Positions 56,223 to 63,913 of a DNA stretch of 64,000 nt are shown here, piece after piece. The DNA comes from Bordetella petrii (lineage in GTDB: Bacteria > Pseudomonadota > Gammaproteobacteria > Burkholderiales > Burkholderiaceae_B): assembly GCA_017745595.1 (NCBI GenBank), contig WMBV01000003.1, positions 124,001-188,000 of the forward strand. Direction: 5' to 3'. Made by a program: the position numbers and the translations under genes. Numbering within the stretch: position 1 is the stretch's first letter; each line of letters starts with the position of its first letter. The notes below the pieces were generated by a model. The model ran no database searches and had not been told where the DNA came from. It saw only the letters and a program-made list of their open reading frames with translations.

Positions 56223-57008
56223 ATGCGCTTCCTTCTTGCCCGGACGGCCCTGCTGGCGTCCGCCTTCTTCCTGGCCGGCGCGGCCCACGCCGAAAAGCTC
56301 GTCGTGGGGGCCACGCAGGTGCCGCACGCCGAGATCCTGGAAGTGGTCAAGCCCATGCTGGCCAAAGAAGGCGTCGAACTGGACATCAAGGTGTTCAGCG
56401 ACTACGTGCAGCCCAACCTGCAGCTGGCCGACAAGGAACTGGACGCGAATTTCTTCCAGCACCAGCCGTACCTGGATACCTTCAACAAAGACCGCGGCAC
56501 CCAGCTGGTGTCGGTGGGCCTGGTGCACGTCGAGCCCTTCGGCGGCTATTCGCGCAAGATCAAGTCGGTGGCCGAGCTGCCGGCGGGCGCCACCGTGGCC
56601 ATTCCCAACGACCCCTCCAATAGCGGCCGCGCCCTGTTGCTGCTGCAGAAGCAGGGCCTGATCAAGCTGAAAGATCCCGCCAATATCGTGGCCACGCCGC
56701 TCGATATCGTGGAAAACCCCAAGCAGCTGAAGTTCCGTGAACTCGAGGCCGCCATGCTGCCCCGCGCGCTCGACGACGTGGCGCTGGCACTCATCAACAC
56801 CAACTATGCGCTGGAAGCCGGCCTGGTGCCCACCAAAGACGCGCTGTTCATCGAAGGCGCCGACTCGCCCTACGCCAACCTGGTGGCCGCGCGTCCCGAC
56901 AACAAAGACGCGCCCGCCATCAAAAAGCTGGTGCAGGCCCTGCACAGCCCCCAGGTGAAGCAGTTCATCCTGGACAAGTACAAGGGCGCGGTAGTGCCGG
57001 CTTTCTGA
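56223..57008 (+). CDS. metQ: MetQ/NlpA-family methionine-binding protein
   Basis: A 261-residue periplasmic binding protein of the methionine ABC uptake family. The signal peptide is RFLLARTALLASAFFLAGAA with cleavage expected after HA; no lipobox Cys is seen. LVVGATQVPHAEILEVVKPM near residues 25-44, DYVQPNLQLADKELDANFFQ near 61-80 and the HQPYLDTFN stretch are MetQ hallmarks. No metN or metI genes are adjacent. The last 15 bp with the stop codon are duplicated in tandem just after it. The start ATG follows GAGGT with normal spacing. Confidence 0.9.
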   Translation: MRFLLARTALLASAFFLAGAAHAEKLVVGATQVPHAEILEVVKPMLAKEGVELDIKVFSDYVQPNLQLADKELDANFFQHQPYLDTFNKDRGTQLVSVGLVHVEPFGGYSRKIKSVAELPAGATVAIPNDPSNSGRALLLLQKQGLIKLKDPANIVATPLDIVENPKQLKFRELEAAMLPRALDDVALALINTNYALEAGLVPTKDALFIEGADSPYANLVAARPDNKDAPAIKKLVQALHSPQVKQFILDKYKGAVVPAF

Positions 57009-57032
57009 GTGCCGGCTTTCTAAGCGGGCGGC

Positions 57033-57053
57033 GGCGCCCCGCAAGGGGGCGCC
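57033..57053 (+). terminator. Candidate hairpin terminator after metQ
   Basis: GGCGCCCC (57033-57040) pairs with GGGGCGCC (57046-57053) around the loop GCAAG, 25 bp after the metQ stop. No T-run follows, so it may be a weak terminator or an mRNA 3'-end stabiliser. Confidence 0.45.
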
Positions 57054-57076
57054 ACGCCGGCCGGCCCTGAACGTTT

Positions 57077-57134
57077 TTGCCAATGGCGCTGACCGCGGGC
57101 GCCATTGCCCGGCGGCGGGGCCCGCCCATAGACT
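57077..57134 (+). promoter_or_regulatory. Palindromic activator site and promoter of the CoA-transferase-araC unit
   Basis: CAATGGCG (57081-57088) and its inverse CGCCATTG (57100-57107) lie with 19 bp between corresponding positions, inside a 31-bp block beginning TTGCCAATGGC at 57077. The block matches one at 59537-59567 in 25 of 31 bases. The right half overlaps a -35-like TTGCCC (57105-57110), with a -10-like TAGACT at 57129-57134 (18-bp spacing). The AraC protein encoded downstream is the likely binder. Confidence 0.6.
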
Positions 57135-57167
57135 ACGTCACGCATCCAACTTCCCTATGTTGCACGC

Positions 57168-58400
57168 ATGACGCCACAGCAAGCGCCGGCCGCCGGCCCG
57201 GCGCGCGGAAATGCCAGCCGCCCGCCCCTGACAGGCATTACTGTCCTGGACCTGACCCGCCTGCTGCCCGGCCCCGTGGCCGGCATGCATCTGGCCGACC
57301 TGGGCGCCGACGTGATCAAGATCGAAGACACCGGCCTGGGCGATTACGCCGCCGCGCCGGTGCGAACCCTGGTGAACCGGAACAAGCGCGGCATCCGGCT
57401 CAACCTGAAGACGCCCGAGGGCGTGCGGGCGCTGCTCGATCTTTGCGCTACCGCCGACGTCCTGATCGAGGGCTTCCGGCCCGGCGTGATGGCGCGGCTT
57501 GGGGTGGACTACGCCGCCGTGCGTGCCCGCAATCCGGCCATGGTGTACTGCAGCATCAGCGGCTACGGCCAAACCGGCGCCTTGTCGCAAGAGCCGGGCC
57601 ACGACCTGAACTATTGCAGCCTGACGGGCGTGGCCGACCAGATCGGAACACCCGGCGCGGCCCCCGCGCTGTCGAACCTGCCGCTGGCGGACCTGCTGGG
57701 CGGCTCGATGGTGGCCATCATGGGCATCTTGTCGGCCTTGTTCGACGCGGCCCGCACGGGGCAGGGGCGCCATGTGGACATTGCCATCGCCGACGGCGTC
57801 CTGGCGCACGCCATGCTGCCGCTGGCGGCGGTAAACGAGCAAGGCAGGGCGCCGGCAACCGGCGACGCCAAGCTGACCGGCGCCTTGCCCTGCTATGCGC
57901 TCTATCCAACGCGCGACGGGCGCTACCTGGCGGTGGCGGCGCTGGAACACAAATTCTGGGCGGCGTTCTGCCGGGCGGTCGACCGCCACGACCTGATCGA
58001 ACTGCACCGTACGCGGCACGACCCGTGCAATGCGTGGGTGCGGCAGCAGCTGGAACAACTGATTGCCGCGCACGACCTGGCCTGGTGGCGCGACAGGCTG
58101 GCGGGCGCCCAATGTTGCGTGACGCCCGTGCTGCGCTTGCACGAGGTGCTGGACGACCCGCATTTCGTGGCGCGCGGCATGTTGCGGCCGGCCGGGGCGC
58201 CTGGCGGCGACCTGCCGCCCGGCGAGCCGGCCTTGCGCAACGCCGCGCAATTGGGCTGCCCCGTCCAGATGACCGGCTTTTGCTTCGATATCCGCCGTCC
58301 GGCGCCGGCTCCCGGAGAGCATACCGACGAAGTGCTGGGCCGCCTGGGCTACGGGCCGGAACGGCTCGACGCATTGCGCAAGGCAGGCGCGGTGGCCTGA
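57168..58400 (+). CDS. Family III (CaiB/BaiF) CoA-transferase
   Basis: A 410-residue CoA-transferase. GITVLDLTRLLPGPVAGMHL near residues 22-41, LGADVIKIEDTGLGDYAAAP near 45-64, DVLIEGFRPGVMARLGVDYA near 98-117 and VYCSISGYGQTGALSQEPGH near 126-145 are family blocks. The PGPVAGMHLADLGADVIKIED wording is close to the alpha-methylacyl-CoA racemase branch, so racemase activity is an alternative. It is the first gene after the palindromic activator site, is followed by araC 77 bp on, and probably provides the CoA ester used by the thiolase module. Confidence 0.86.
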   Translation: MTPQQAPAAGPARGNASRPPLTGITVLDLTRLLPGPVAGMHLADLGADVIKIEDTGLGDYAAAPVRTLVNRNKRGIRLNLKTPEGVRALLDLCATADVLIEGFRPGVMARLGVDYAAVRARNPAMVYCSISGYGQTGALSQEPGHDLNYCSLTGVADQIGTPGAAPALSNLPLADLLGGSMVAIMGILSALFDAARTGQGRHVDIAIADGVLAHAMLPLAAVNEQGRAPATGDAKLTGALPCYALYPTRDGRYLAVAALEHKFWAAFCRAVDRHDLIELHRTRHDPCNAWVRQQLEQLIAAHDLAWWRDRLAGAQCCVTPVLRLHEVLDDPHFVARGMLRPAGAPGGDLPPGEPALRNAAQLGCPVQMTGFCFDIRRPAPAPGEHTDEVLGRLGYGPERLDALRKAGAVA

Positions 58401-58477
58401 ACGGGCGCAGGCAGGCCGACGGTATACTGGGCACGCCCGCACGTTGCCCGCCGGCTCGCCACCGCAACGCCCTACCG

Positions 58478-59530
58478 ATGCCTGCCTCCATCGATACCTA
58501 CGGCCCCATCGCGCAGCACACTGTCGCCACCACCCAGGTCATACAAATCATTCAGGGTGCGCGCAAGCAGGGGCTCGATGTCAATGCCATCTTGTGGCGG
58601 GCGGGCATTTCGCCGGCGCTGCTCGAATCGCCGCTGTCGCGCGTGACGCAGTCCCAGTATGCGCGGCTGATGCGGGCGCTGGCCCGGGTAATGCGCGATG
58701 AACTGTGGGGGCTGACGTCCCGGCCGGTGCGCCCGGGCAGCTTCATCCGCATCTGCAGCCAGCTGATCCATTGCCGCACGCTGGGCGAGGCCATACGCGC
58801 CGGCCTGGGCCTGTATCGGCTGCTGCTGTCGGCTTTTACTCCCCGGCTGGTGGTCTTGGACGGCGTCGCGCGGATACAGGTCGATCATCGCGGCGGCCCG
58901 GTCGACACGCTGGAAAGCTATGCCATGCGTACGTTCTGCTTCATGTCGTACGGGGTGATGTCCTGGCTTACCGCCAGGCGGATTCCCGTGCTGTGCGTCA
59001 GCATACCCAGCACGCGGGGCTATCGCAGCGAGGCCGAGCGCCTGATGCATACGCGCATTCGCTACACGGCGAAATGCGCATCGCTGGAATTCGACGCGCG
59101 CTGGCTGGACCTGCCCGTGGTGCAAACCGCCGAAAGCCTGCAGGTCTTCATACGCGAGGTGCCGGGCAACCTGGTCATCAAGTACCGCGACCGCAGCCGG
59201 CTGGCCGAGCGCATCCGCCGCGTGCTGCGGCAGCACGCCATGGCGGAAGGCATGACGCTGGTAGAGGTCAGCCGGCACCTGGGCATGACGCCGCAAACCG
59301 TGCGCAGGCACCTGAAGGCGGAAGGCAAGAGCTTCCAGCGCATCAAAGACGACCTGCGCCGCGACACGGCCATTCAGTTGCTGGCGCGGCCCAGCCTGAC
59401 CCTGGCCGATGTCGCCGCGCACCTGGGGTATTCCGAGGCCAGCACGTTCCATCGCGCATTCAAATCCTGGACCGGGCTGGCTCCCGGCCTGTACCGGGAA
59501 GCCAAGCTGCAGCCGCCCGCCTCGGATTGA
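58478..59530 (+). CDS. AraC-family regulator with OruR/ArcD-type N-terminal domain
   Basis: A 350-residue regulator. The N-terminal half is the Arabinose_bd-like domain of the OruR group (GLDVNAILWRAGISPALLES near residues 32-51). The C-terminal AraC helix-turn-helix pair lies at about 255-345 (LVEVSRHLGMTPQTVRRHLK, LLARPSLTLADVAAHLGYSE, ASTFHRAFKSWTGLAPGLYR). The ATG at 58478 was chosen because the domain starts about 15 residues later. It stands between the CoA-transferase and Bug genes, each of which has the same palindromic site in its promoter, so it probably activates both units. Confidence 0.9.
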   Translation: MPASIDTYGPIAQHTVATTQVIQIIQGARKQGLDVNAILWRAGISPALLESPLSRVTQSQYARLMRALARVMRDELWGLTSRPVRPGSFIRICSQLIHCRTLGEAIRAGLGLYRLLLSAFTPRLVVLDGVARIQVDHRGGPVDTLESYAMRTFCFMSYGVMSWLTARRIPVLCVSIPSTRGYRSEAERLMHTRIRYTAKCASLEFDARWLDLPVVQTAESLQVFIREVPGNLVIKYRDRSRLAERIRRVLRQHAMAEGMTLVEVSRHLGMTPQTVRRHLKAEGKSFQRIKDDLRRDTAIQLLARPSLTLADVAAHLGYSEASTFHRAFKSWTGLAPGLYREAKLQPPASD

Positions 59531-59536
59531 GCATTC

Positions 59537-59593
59537 TTGCCAATGGCATTGGCCGTTGCCGCCATTGTTGCTGTCTGTCGCCCTGCCTACACT
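59537..59593 (+). promoter_or_regulatory. Palindromic activator site and promoter of the Bug-thiolase-SDR-dehydrogenase unit
   Basis: CAATGGCA (59541-59548) and CGCCATTG (59560-59567) keep the same 19-bp register as the site at 57077. The right half overlaps a -35-like TTGTTG (59565-59570), and a -10-like TACACT follows at 59588-59593 (17-bp spacing). The site is 108 bp upstream of the Bug start. Activation by the AraC protein encoded just upstream is inferred. Confidence 0.6.
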
Positions 59594-59675
59594 GCCTCTC
59601 GCAGTCGATCGTTTCGATCCATTCCTACATAAGCAGCCGCCGGCATCGCCGGACGGACGGCAAGGAGACAAAGAC

Positions 59676-60665
59676 ATGAATATTGCACGCCGCACCTTCA
59701 TGGCGTTGCTGGGCGGACTTGCCTGGTTCGGCGGTACCGCCGCGGCGGCCGCACCGGATGCGCCGCCCGCCTATCCAACCCGGCCCATCACGCTGGTCGT
59801 GCCGTATCCGGCCGGCGGCGGCACCGACATCATCGCGCGCCTGGTGGGCAAGCAATTGGGCGACCGTCTGGGCGTGCCCGTCATTGTCGAGAACAAGCCG
59901 GGCGCCAGCGGCATCGTCGGCAACGACCAGGTGGCCAAGGCCGCGCCCGACGGCCATACCCTGCTGCTGGCCATCACGGCGCTCATCCAGACGCCGGCCC
60001 TGTACAAGAACATTCCCTATGACGCGCGCAAAGACCTGGCGCCGGTCAGCGAGGTGGCGCGCTCGTCCGACCTGTTCGTCGTGCACAAGGACATCCCGGC
60101 CGACACCTTGCAGCAGTTCGTCGAACTCGCCAGGCAGCATCCGGGCAAGTACAGCTATGGCAACTACGGCAACGGGACGTCGTCGCACATGCACGGCGAG
60201 CTGTTCAAGCTGACGACCGGCGCCGAAATCACCGCCGTGCCGTTCAAGGGGGCCGCGCCGCTCACCACCAACATCCTGGGCGGGCAGATCGCCTCGGCGT
60301 TCGTCGACGTGTCGTCCTTCAATGCCAATCTGGCTTCGGACAAGATCAAGATCCTGGCCATCACGGGCACCAAGCGCCATCCCAAGCTGCCGTCGGTGCC
60401 GACGTTCCAGGAAGCCGGCATGGACGGCTTCGAGCCCAATGGCTGGTTCGGCGTGCTGGCGCCGGCGGCCACGCCTCGGCCCATCATCGAGAAACTGTCG
60501 GCGGAAATCCAGCAGATCGTTCACACACAGGAAGTCAGCGGCCGCCTGGAAAGCATGGGGCTGACGCCGGTAGGCAATTCCCCTGAATCGTTCGCCAAAG
60601 TCATAGACACCGACATGCCGTACTGGGCCGGCATCGTGCGGGACGCGCACATCGTACTGGATTGA
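59676..60665 (+). CDS. Bug-family (TctC-like) periplasmic solute-binding protein
   Basis: A 329-residue secreted receptor. The signal peptide is NIARRTFMALLGGLAWFGGT with a twin-Arg pair at residues 5-6, and cleavage is expected near AAAAAP. Signatures are RPITLVVPYPAGGGTDIIAR near 38-57, VIVENKPGASGIVGNDQVAK near 70-89 and PDGHTLLLAI near 92. The ATG at 59676 has AAGGAGA about 8 bp upstream. It is the first gene of the second AraC-linked unit, 45 bp before the thiolase gene, and should bind the acid that this module degrades. Confidence 0.9.
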   Translation: MNIARRTFMALLGGLAWFGGTAAAAAPDAPPAYPTRPITLVVPYPAGGGTDIIARLVGKQLGDRLGVPVIVENKPGASGIVGNDQVAKAAPDGHTLLLAITALIQTPALYKNIPYDARKDLAPVSEVARSSDLFVVHKDIPADTLQQFVELARQHPGKYSYGNYGNGTSSHMHGELFKLTTGAEITAVPFKGAAPLTTNILGGQIASAFVDVSSFNANLASDKIKILAITGTKRHPKLPSVPTFQEAGMDGFEPNGWFGVLAPAATPRPIIEKLSAEIQQIVHTQEVSGRLESMGLTPVGNSPESFAKVIDTDMPYWAGIVRDAHIVLD

Positions 60666-60710: not shown

Positions 60711-61904
60711 ATGGCTCGACAGCAACGGCCGGTATACGTGATCGGCGTGGGCATGATCCCCTTCACCAAGCCTGGCGCCAGCGACCCCTACGACGTGATG
60801 GGCGCGGGGGCGGCGGGGCTGGCGCTGCAAGACGCCGGCATTGCGTATGCGCAGGTCGAGCAAGCCTATGCGGGCTACGTATACGGCGACTCCACCGCGG
60901 GGCAGGCGGCCGTGTACGGCATCGGGCTGACCGGCATCCCCGTGTTCAACGTCAACAACAATTGCGCCACGGGCTCCAGCGCCTTGTACCTGGCCAGGCA
61001 GGCGGTGGAAAGCGGCGCCGTCGAGTGCGCGCTGGCGCTGGGGTTCGAGCAGATGACGCCCGGCGCGCTCAAAGGGAAATACGAAGACCGTCCTTCGCCG
61101 GTCGCCCGGTTCGCCGGCGCCATGACCGGCCTGCAAGGCTACGACGACAACGCGCCGCGGGCCGCCCAGTTTTTCGGCGGGGCGGGCCGCGCCTATATGG
61201 CCGAACACGGCATCCGCGCCGATACCTTCGGGCGTATTTCGGTCAAGGCGCGCCAGCACGCCGCGCGCAATCCGCTGGCCGTGTTCCGCAATGTGCTGTC
61301 GCTGCAAGAGGTCATGTCTTCACCCACGGTCTTCGACCCGCTCACGCGATACCAGTGCTGCCCGCCCACCTGCGGCGCCGCCGCGGCGGTGGTGTGCTCG
61401 GACGACTTCGCGCGCCGCAACAAGCTGGCGCACCGCGTGCGAATCGCGGCCCAGGCCATGACTACCGACACCGCCAGTACCTTCGACGGCGGCGATATGC
61501 GCAAGCTGGTGGGCTACGACATGAGCGCGGCAGCGGCCCGCCAGGTCTACGAGCAGGCGGGCATCGGGCCCGGCGACGTCGACGTGGTCGAGCTGCACGA
61601 CTGCTTCACCGCCAACGAACTGATCTCGTACGAGGCCCTGGGCCTGACGCCCGAGGGCACGGCCGAGCGTTTCATCCTGGAAGGCGACAACACCTACGGC
61701 GGGCGCGTGGTCACCAATCCGTCGGGCGGCCTGTTGTCGAAAGGGCACCCGCTGGGCGCCACCGGCCTGGCGCAATGCGCGGAACTGTACTGGCAATTGA
61801 CGGGCCGCGCCGAGCAGCGCCAGGTAGAAGGGGCCCGCATCGCCCTGCAGCACAACCTGGGCCTGGGCGGCGCCTGCGTCGTCACGCTGTATCAGGCCGG
61901 CTGA
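60711..61904 (+). CDS. Thiolase (SCP2/lipid-transfer type acetyl-CoA acyltransferase)
   Basis: A 397-residue thiolase of the SCP-x-like branch. The nucleophilic Cys is in FNVNNNCATGSSALYLARQA near residues 79-98. The second active-site block is VVELHDCFTANELISYEALG near 286-305 and the third is LLSKGHPLGATGLAQCAELY near 342-361. It cleaves or forms a 3-ketoacyl-CoA bond, the last step of a beta-oxidation-like sequence. It is followed 27 bp on by the SDR gene and then the dehydrogenase gene. Chain-length preference cannot be read from sequence. Confidence 0.88.
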   Translation: MARQQRPVYVIGVGMIPFTKPGASDPYDVMGAGAAGLALQDAGIAYAQVEQAYAGYVYGDSTAGQAAVYGIGLTGIPVFNVNNNCATGSSALYLARQAVESGAVECALALGFEQMTPGALKGKYEDRPSPVARFAGAMTGLQGYDDNAPRAAQFFGGAGRAYMAEHGIRADTFGRISVKARQHAARNPLAVFRNVLSLQEVMSSPTVFDPLTRYQCCPPTCGAAAAVVCSDDFARRNKLAHRVRIAAQAMTTDTASTFDGGDMRKLVGYDMSAAAARQVYEQAGIGPGDVDVVELHDCFTANELISYEALGLTPEGTAERFILEGDNTYGGRVVTNPSGGLLSKGHPLGATGLAQCAELYWQLTGRAEQRQVEGARIALQHNLGLGGACVVTLYQAG

Positions 61905-61931: not shown

Positions 61932-62759
61932 ATGCAGAACAAGTTGGAAGGAAAAGTGGCGCTGGTGTCCGGCTCGGGGCGCGGAATCGGGCGCGAGATC
62001 GCGCTGAAACTGGCGGCCGAAGGCGCCCGCGTGGTGATCAACGACCTGGACGCCGGGCCGGCCGAAGAAACCGCCGCCGAGGTGCGGGCCGCGGGCGGCC
62101 AGGCTTGCGTATGCGCCGGCAGCGTGGCCGAAGCCGGTTTCGCCGACCGCTACATCGCCCGGGCCCTGGAGCAGTTCGGCGGCCTGGACATCATCGTCAA
62201 CAACGCCGGCTATACCTGGGACAACGTCATCCAGAAAATGAGCGACGAGCAATGGGACGCGATGCTGGCCGTGCACCTGACCGCGCCGTTCCGGATACTG
62301 CGGGCCGCGTCGGGCTACTTGCGCGAGGCCGCCAAGCGCGAAAAGGCCGCGGGCCTGCGCAATCATCGCAAGATAGTGAACATTTCTTCCACCTCGGGCG
62401 TCTACGGAAACGCCGGCCAGGCGAACTACGCGGCGGCCAAGGCGGGGATTACCGGGCTGACCAAGGCCCTGGCCAAGGAATGGGGCCGCTACAACGTCAA
62501 CGTCAACAGCGTGGCGTTCGGCCTGATCAAGACGCGCCTGACCGAGGCGCCCGCCGACGCCGATGCCAGCATCGATGTAGAGGGCCGCAAGATCCATGTG
62601 GGCGTGGCGCCGGAAAACCTGCGCAATGCCGAGGCGACCATCCCGCTGGGGCGCGCCGGCACGCCGGCCGAAGCGGCGGGCGCGGTGTATCTGTTCTGCA
62701 TTCCGGAGTCCGACTACATCAGCGGCCAGGTACTGGTATGCGGCGGAGGGCGGCCATGA
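61932..62759 (+). CDS. Short-chain dehydrogenase, probable 3-hydroxyacyl-CoA dehydrogenase
   Basis: A 275-residue SDR. The cofactor loop is ALVSGSGRGIGREIALKLAA near residues 9-28, DIIVNNAGYTWDNV is near 88-101, the catalytic Ser is in IVNISSTSGVYGN near 150-162 and the YxxxK is in NYAAAKAGITGLTKALAKEW near 166-185. An insert after the Asn-Asn-Ala block (REAAKREKAAGLRNHRK) and its position between thiolase and acyl-CoA dehydrogenase genes suggest a 3-hydroxyacyl-CoA dehydrogenase. ATG 61932 follows GAGGTGG; a GTG nine bases earlier is less likely. Its stop overlaps the next start. Confidence 0.87.
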   Translation: MQNKLEGKVALVSGSGRGIGREIALKLAAEGARVVINDLDAGPAEETAAEVRAAGGQACVCAGSVAEAGFADRYIARALEQFGGLDIIVNNAGYTWDNVIQKMSDEQWDAMLAVHLTAPFRILRAASGYLREAAKREKAAGLRNHRKIVNISSTSGVYGNAGQANYAAAKAGITGLTKALAKEWGRYNVNVNSVAFGLIKTRLTEAPADADASIDVEGRKIHVGVAPENLRNAEATIPLGRAGTPAEAAGAVYLFCIPESDYISGQVLVCGGGRP

Positions 62760-63913
62760 TGGCCCGGCGGCCGTGGGTGGACGCGGAAATCGAGCAGGTG
62801 CGCGATACCGCCGTGCGCTTCTTCGAGCGCGAATGCCTGCCCCACGAAGAAAGATGGGCGGCGCAGCGCCACGCGGATCGCGACATCTGGGCGCGGGCGG
62901 GGCGGGCCGGCCTGCTGTGCGCCAGCATTCCGCAGGCCTACGGCGGCGGCGGCGGCACCTTCCTGCACGATGCCGCCATCTGCGAAGCCCAGGCCGCCAC
63001 CCTGGCCGGAGGGCTGAGCATCAACGTCCACAGCGGCATCGTGGCGCATTACATTCTGGCGTACGGTTCGGAACCGCAGAAGCAGCGCTGGCTGCCCCGC
63101 CTGGCAACGGGCGAATGGGTGGGCGCCATCGCCATGAGCGAGCCGAATGCCGGCACCGACCTGCAGCGCATCCGCACGACGGCCACCCGCCAGGGCGGCG
63201 ACTATCTCATCCACGGCAATAAAACCTTCATCACCAATGGCTATCACGCCGACCTGATCATTGTCGCCGTCAAGACCGACCAGGCTGCGGGCGCCAAAGG
63301 CATGTCGCTGGTGGTGGTGGAAACGCCGGGCCTGGCGGGCTTCCGGCGCGGACAGCCGCTGGCCAAGCTGGGGCAGAAAACCATCGACGCCGTCGAACTT
63401 TTTTTCGACGGCGCGCGCGTTCCGCGCGCCAATTTGCTGGGCGAGGCCGAAGGCCAGGGGTTTGCCCAGCTGATGCGGCAATTGCCGCAAGAGCGGCTGC
63501 TGATCGCCGTGGCGGCCGTGGCCGGCATGCACCGGGCCATTGCCGACACGCGCAGCTATGTGCAGCAACGCCAAGTGTTCGGCGACCGCCTGATGGGCCT
63601 GCAGAACACGCGGTTCACGCTGGCCCAGTGCTGGACGCAGGCCACGGTCGCGCGCAGCTTCGTGGACGATTGCATCATGCGGCTGCAGCGCGGCGAACTG
63701 GATGTGCCGACCGCCGCGATGGCCAAATGGTGGGCCACGGAAACCCATTGCCGGATCATCGACGATTGCCTGCAGCTGCATGGCGGCTACGGCTACATGA
63801 CGGAATACCCGATTGCCCGGATGTACGCCGACGCGCGCGTCGGAAAAATATACGGCGGCGCCAACGAGATCATGAAGGAGATCATCGCCCGATCCCTCGA
63901 TGTGCCCGGCTGA
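62756..63913 (+). CDS. Acyl-CoA dehydrogenase
   Basis: A 385-residue flavoenzyme. IAMSEPNAGTDLQRIRTT near residues 123-140 and LIHGNKTFITNGYHADLIIV near 150-169 form the FAD/substrate region, and DCLQLHGGYGYMTEYPIARM near 338-357 the C-terminal region. A Glu in LPQERLLIAVAAVAG near 242-256 occupies the catalytic position of isovaleryl-CoA dehydrogenase-type enzymes, in keeping with Gly at the IYGGANEIM position. The first of two adjacent ATG codons overlaps the SDR stop. It would introduce the double bond in the acid processed by the module. Confidence 0.9.
   Translation: MMARRPWVDAEIEQVRDTAVRFFERECLPHEERWAAQRHADRDIWARAGRAGLLCASIPQAYGGGGGTFLHDAAICEAQAATLAGGLSINVHSGIVAHYILAYGSEPQKQRWLPRLATGEWVGAIAMSEPNAGTDLQRIRTTATRQGGDYLIHGNKTFITNGYHADLIIVAVKTDQAAGAKGMSLVVVETPGLAGFRRGQPLAKLGQKTIDAVELFFDGARVPRANLLGEAEGQGFAQLMRQLPQERLLIAVAAVAGMHRAIADTRSYVQQRQVFGDRLMGLQNTRFTLAQCWTQATVARSFVDDCIMRLQRGELDVPTAAMAKWWATETHCRIIDDCLQLHGGYGYMTEYPIARMYADARVGKIYGGANEIMKEIIARSLDVPG

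Follow-up and report, generated by a model that had tools for sequence, protein, structure and literature searches.

Predicted tandem operators of an AraC-family activator at two adjacent gene units for organic-acid breakdown in Bordetella petrii

Two similar DNA blocks in Bordetella petrii, one in front of a CoA-transferase gene and the other in front of a gene unit that opens with a Bug-type receptor, probably serve as operators for an AraC-family activator whose gene lies between them; each is predicted to consist of tandem half-sites through which its unit would be subject to class II activation. The regulator, in other words, probably turns on two adjacent gene sets for organic-acid breakdown. 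This supplies a clade of AraC activators with a predicted operator and a predicted regulon, so that their targets become readable from genome sequence and their inducer can be sought. It also illustrates that what looks like a palindrome in one genome may prove, on comparison and with the help of rearranged loci, to be a tandem repeat; ideas about how such regulators work are left unchanged by this operator pair. Among the matches listed in a search of the open-access literature, neither the regulon nor the motif is named in the title or at the start of the abstract.

Two sites and the genes beside them

The window (the whole stretch of DNA analysed, 64,000 nucleotides long) has these genes next to the two sites:

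57168..58400, + strand: family III CoA-transferase (Pfam CoA_transf_3, 6.2e-95)
58478..59530, + strand: AraC-family regulator (Arabinose_bd N-terminal domain and HTH_18; best solved relative 5chh, 1.9e-13)
59676..60665, + strand: Bug/TctC periplasmic receptor (PF03401, 8.6e-66)
60711..61904, + strand: thiolase of the lipid-transfer (SCP2-like) type (NCBIfam PRK08256, above its cut-off)
61932..62759, + strand: short-chain dehydrogenase (SDR; domain search)
62759..63913, + strand: acyl-CoA dehydrogenase (domain search)

Past the end of the window the strand continues with a second Bug gene, a second CoA-transferase gene and a gene for an AMP-binding CoA ligase (seen in L100); between the second Bug and the second CoA-transferase (9030-9926 of L100), the one frame tested has no Pfam match. 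The gene set is beta-oxidation-like, for a carboxylic acid, and in one relative (L108) it is enlarged by two MaoC-like hydratases and a ligase. Only domain-level pathway names are justified; the acyl-CoA dehydrogenase, the SDR and the CoA-transferase all fall below every NCBIfam cut-off among the matches listed.

The original prediction gave two 31-bp blocks, at 57077-57107 and 59537-59567, as agreeing in 25 of 31 bases, each with CAATGGC opposite GCCATTG and 13 bp between them, the one 5' of the CoA-transferase gene and the other 5' of the Bug/thiolase unit; all of this is borne out. The likeness extends further upstream (57068-57107 against 59528-59567, 40 nt at 78%), and the two sites, A and B, together with their promoter elements, can be laid out as follows:

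57068..57084, + strand: site A, upstream half-site TGA-N8-GCCAAT (from the sequence and the alignment of relatives' sites)
57090..57107, + strand: site A, downstream half-site TGA-N8-GCCATTG, set 22 bp from the first half, at the presumed -35 position
57129..57134, + strand: -10-like TAGACT of the CoA-transferase promoter, 18 bp after TTGCCC (57105-57110)
59528..59544, + strand: site B, upstream half-site (from the sequence and the alignment of relatives' sites)
59550..59567, + strand: site B, downstream half-site TGG-N8-GCCATTG (from the same sources)
59588..59593, + strand: -10-like TACACT, 17 bp after TTGTTG (59565-59570)

The TGA of the upstream half of site B is the stop codon of araC. 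The right half of each block had been described as overlapping a -35-like hexamer that is followed at 17-18 bp by a -10-like one. The -10-like hexamers are present at that spacing, but the '-35' hexamers are weak, TTGCCC matching TTGACA at 4 of 6 positions and TTGTTG at 3 of 6. A sigma-70 consensus scan of 56990-59700 yields no promoter scoring at least 9/12, which says little because shuffles give only 0.3.

Two features of the DNA just upstream of site A may be recorded here. A 15-bp tandem duplication (14/15 identical; window 56993-57022) lies at the stop codon (57006-57008) of a lipoprotein-like gene, which we take to be MetQ-like, so that the last codons of that gene are repeated just past its stop. 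Directly 5' of site A there is a G+C-rich hairpin (57005-57066; -40.5 kcal/mol, z -2.4, with 4 of 200 shuffles as stable), which is not followed by a run of T and may mark the end of transcription for the upstream gene.

Occurrence of sites and regulator in relatives

Relatives of the regulator in named genomes comprise 42 loci, and site mapping took in the 19 with 51-83% identity (L031-L049), omitting L050-L072 (23 loci at 24-41% identity, one of them at 53% over 32 residues). Of 268 genomes of the family, 27 (counting the own one) also have the regulator at E≤1e-80. The own locus, the 19 loci just named and 18 family loci refetched with wider flanks make up the 38 that were mapped; the window's genus is represented among the family loci by L100, L031 and L032. 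At 37 of these 38 araC loci a target gene, belonging to a CoA-transferase or ligase unit and/or to a thiolase/Bug/ligase unit, is preceded by a site that has no more than 2 mismatches in its 13-base core. The exception is a Curvibacter metagenome-assembled genome (L033), whose regulator is 57% identical and in which no site was found in the locus, nor in the genome at E≤0.05. Six loci (L088, L089, L094, L096, L097 and L098) were scanned with a palindrome-type pattern alone and have two sites each at up to 4 mismatches. Conservation of the core is partly circular, since the sites were picked by the core pattern; the flanking TGA and T and the -10 element stand outside that circularity.

In B. 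genomosp. 2 (L031) and B. petrii (L032) both sites and both -10 hexamers are kept, with spacing within 1 bp. The arrangement originally proposed, two promoter-proximal sites with one regulator, is thus retained in these two, and it is rearranged in more distant genera. The claim that the AraC protein controls both units, a prediction still, is well supported by this comparison.

The mapped loci supplied 59 sites (21 of type A and 38 of type B), which thinning at 80% identity reduces to 20. The motif TANNNT starts at offset 49-51 in 33 of the 59 (13 of the 20), and only once elsewhere within offsets 29-67, and these positions had no part in the choice of sites. A TANNNT at 49-51 would put the right half-site at the -35 position; many site-B promoters of one genus, g2, have a poor -10 (GAAGCT-like). 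The same layout is on record for XylS, which binds two direct repeats, the second of them overlapping the -35 box of the Pm promoter by two bases, an overlap that is essential (PMC4225500). It is from this resemblance to XylS at Pm that we infer class II activation here. A site that covers the -35 position would also suit a regulator that represses by steric hindrance from these same sites; this we consider unlikely, given that the weak -35 hexamers suit dependence on an activator and that XylS, with the same layout, activates (PMC4225500).

The question of which regulator acts at these sites was approached by a model search of the 268 family genomes (strict filters, with the best 23 candidates per genome scored). 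Each of the 27 genomes that have the regulator (E≤1e-80, the own one included) has a match at E≤1.2e-4, as does 1 of the 241 that are without it. Twelve of the 27 supplied training sites and most of the others share a genus with some of these, so that the 27 are not independent, and more weight falls on the near-absence of the site from the 241, which under these filters is not exhaustive; when the limit is relaxed to E≤0.1, some match is found in 145 of 268 genomes, as expected of a short motif. The single genome with a site and no such regulator (G225) has two regulators at 40-43% identity, and its site, accompanied by a -10-like TAGATT, lies 5' of a Bug gene. That its AraC relatives are on other contigs than the site might be taken to mean that an unlinked regulator, or a paralogous AraC protein, uses these sites and that the adjoining araC is incidental, and one relative (L148) indeed has a site beside a second araC. 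Such a reading is nevertheless improbable, more so than repression, in the face of the 27/27 against 1/241 distribution and of the fact that the sites flank araC.

Direct repeat and palindrome

Tandem repeats are the usual operator design for the AraC family. The original prediction had made the two sites palindromic, and with both of them carrying perfect 7-bp arms the operator could have been CAATGGC-N13-GCCATTG, bound by a dimer in inverted orientation. What is conserved over the 20 thinned sites, on which shape was tested, is TGA at -11, TT at -5/-4, GCCAAT at 0-5, TTG at 10-12 and GCCATTG at 22-28. A direct-repeat period of 22 bp accounts for 192 of 360 column matches, compared with 133 for a period of 21 and at most 108 for the rest of the periods 14-30; the inverted reading reaches 139 of 360, above the other inverted centres tried (at most 112), and its CAAT/ATTG part persists in relatives. 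With the window's genus taken out (17 sites), the corresponding counts are 160 for the 22-bp period, 116 for period 21 and 119 for the inverted reading. The left GGC (positions 6-8) varies in relatives (GCCAATCC, GCCAATCG, GCCAAGCG), and the conserved TGA and TTG flanks suit a 22-bp direct repeat alone. A palindromic operator as the conserved form was rejected, the two arms not both being kept in orthologous promoters. Judged by the aligned sites, what is conserved is TGA-N8-GCCAWT repeated head to tail with a 22-bp period, that is, a tandem operator whose halves are about two helical turns apart, and the apparent palindrome is local.

Rearranged loci bear on the same issue. Site A is turned with the CoA-transferase gene at all 14 loci of genus g2 in which that gene is divergent from araC (these 14 probably go back to one event, all of them being of one genus). 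At all six Cupriavidus loci in which Bug is divergent from araC (L036-L041) the site faces Bug, and at the six other loci with a CoA-transferase-proximal site A it faces the CoA-transferase. The strand of a site was taken as the one with the better core match, and where both strands have 2 mismatches (L113) the choice was made by the neighbouring gene. Polarity kept in this way speaks against symmetry, since a symmetric operator would not need it; with polarity tracking the gene in two rearranged lineages, a true palindrome is marginally less probable even than control by an unlinked regulator.

The bare pair of blocks is only moderately alike, for when stretches of the same lengths were paired at random within the window, 2 of 1975 pairs also reached a 25/31 match; it is therefore conservation in relatives that secures the observation. 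The core pattern at up to 3 mismatches has three matches in the window (shuffled mean, 0.06), all of them at the two sites, one being site A read on the reverse strand. Across the 6.1-Mb genome the only exact matches are the two sites, and the next non-overlapping match has 2 mismatches; matches at up to 3 mismatches number 65 (30 forward and 35 reverse, against 20 for the pattern reversed), so that loose matches are common and mean little. A sequence-only model (R1) made from 29 sites, none from the window's genus, finds the two sites in the own genome at E values of 1.2e-7 and 2.2e-4, with site A, at 23.6 bits, well below site B, at 33.8 bits; among the best 150 of 2668 first-look candidates that were scored, there is no third site below E 0.28. 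That the blocks are a mobile repeat or a chance likeness with no regulatory role, for which the 2 random pairs in 1975 might be quoted, can practically be dismissed, as there are just two copies in 6.1 Mb, both 5' of genes, and they are kept at equivalent positions over genera.

The regulator, its possible self-control and a putative wider regulon

The regulator has the double helix-turn-helix of the AraC/XylS family (PF12833, 1.7e-18, residues 265-341) behind an N-terminal effector/dimerisation domain (PF12625 Arabinose_bd, 3.4e-35). Its best NCBIfam models are GliR (PA3027; NF050186), where it scores 140.8 against a cut-off of 570 bits, and QhpR (NF049968), where it scores 139.3 against 250 bits; it thus falls short of both equivalogs, the likeness being full-length for QhpR and C-terminal for GliR. 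Among solved structures, CdpR of Pseudomonas aeruginosa (5chh) comes closest to the DNA-binding domain. A comparison of 23 rows, read by eye and leaving out the two G225 regulators (L130 and L131), has both helices kept, as (T/A/G)PQT(L/V)RR and (S/T)E.(S/P)TF(H/N)RAF; the Curvibacter regulator, whose locus is without a site, has GPQT where most have TPQT.

Published consensus sequences are GGATSNNNTYGGCCA for VqsM and RGWYNNNWNCGGCCA for CdpR (PMC8151288). Against the two half-sites the VqsM consensus scores means of 8.0 and 7.7 of 12 (window background, 3.9) and the CdpR consensus 8.1 and 7.7 of 11 (background, 3.8) in a register set by aligning GCCA, shifts of 1-4 bp giving at most 6.1; the best reverse-strand 15-mers reach 6.05 and 6.75, so that the comparison does not wholly separate the orientations. 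Both motifs are 15 bp long and close with GGCCA; their GGA/RGW element starts 8 bp before GCCA, and they are in register with the two half-sites. In contrast to the tandem pair at a promoter here, they are reported as single sites, the VqsM site being judged to be without dyad symmetry and a monomer being suggested (PMC4176358), and the targets of CdpR and VqsM include quorum sensing and virulence genes. With XylS and BenR, whose repeats are given as a BenR consensus of TGCA-N6-GGNTA (PMC6449761), there is a shared pattern of direct repeats of composite half-sites and of catabolic genes for organic acids; the present system differs in its half-site, TGA-N8-GCCAWT, in the Arabinose_bd (PF12625) N-terminal domain of its regulator and in its CoA-ester, beta-oxidation-like targets. 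For GliR, an activator of metabolic genes, the motif lies over the -35, and the reported motif differs from the half-sites here (PMC8151288).

How the predicted activator would work can be sketched from these elements. Within each 17-bp half-site the contacts would be made by both helix-turn-helix motifs of a single monomer, and the 22-bp spacing would let a dimer bind in tandem along one face of the DNA. Of the two halves, the one nearer the promoter would cover the weak -35, and the bound regulator would recruit RNA polymerase to a -10 element starting 20-21 bp past the site. With a carboxylate or its CoA ester as the putative inducer, the induced regulator would switch on the CoA-transferase unit, with possible read-through into araC, and the Bug-thiolase-SDR-acyl-CoA dehydrogenase unit.

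Whether the regulator governs its own expression through site A, as had been proposed, is uncertain, because araC has a -10-like element of its own:

58423..58428, + strand: TATACT, candidate -10 of an araC promoter (by sequence comparison, kept in L031, B. genomosp. 2, and L032, B. petrii)

The CoA-transferase-araC gap contains GGTATACTGGGC in the own genome and in these two relatives; a match to TATACTGGGC is no rarer than chance in the window, where one is expected. Upstream of araC in 11 other loci there is, by eye, a -10-like TACCAT or TACAAT, and the 14 loci in which araC is divergent from the CoA-transferase gene bear on its control as well. The gene may have its own promoter, to which read-through from site A would be added.

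The module had also been called self-contained. This holds for the own genome, with its two sites, but not for some relatives, which have unlinked ones. The genomes of 7 named loci contain additional, mostly weaker matches on other contigs, and these candidate sites lie, for example, before Peripla_BP_6 genes in Pseudorhodoferax (L139, L145), before a TctC gene in Cupriavidus (L142) and before a distant CoA-transferase gene in another Cupriavidus (L141); a TctA-side site in Alloalcanivorax (L137) lies inside the araC locus. A more general proposition, on which our own judgement is evenly divided, is that two tandem copies of TGA-N8-GCCAWT at 22 bp are the shared code of a PF12625-containing AraC clade, mostly of Burkholderiales, that governs acyl-CoA catabolic units with Bug uptake, that paralogues use nearly the same code, and that the regulon has spread to unlinked uptake genes (Peripla_BP_6 in Pseudorhodoferax, TctC in Cupriavidus).

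Pseudorhodoferax provides some further observations. In two of its genomes (L146 and L150), at about position 1500, there is a related site, alike in both, whose GCCA halves are seemingly 21 rather than 22 bp apart; further downstream of it L146 has a weak, truncated AMP-binding match. Away from the main locus, L148 has a site with a perfect core that precedes a Bug gene (46%), and part of a second AraC relative (56% over 140 aa) runs convergent to it, so that this is perhaps a paralogous copy of the module.
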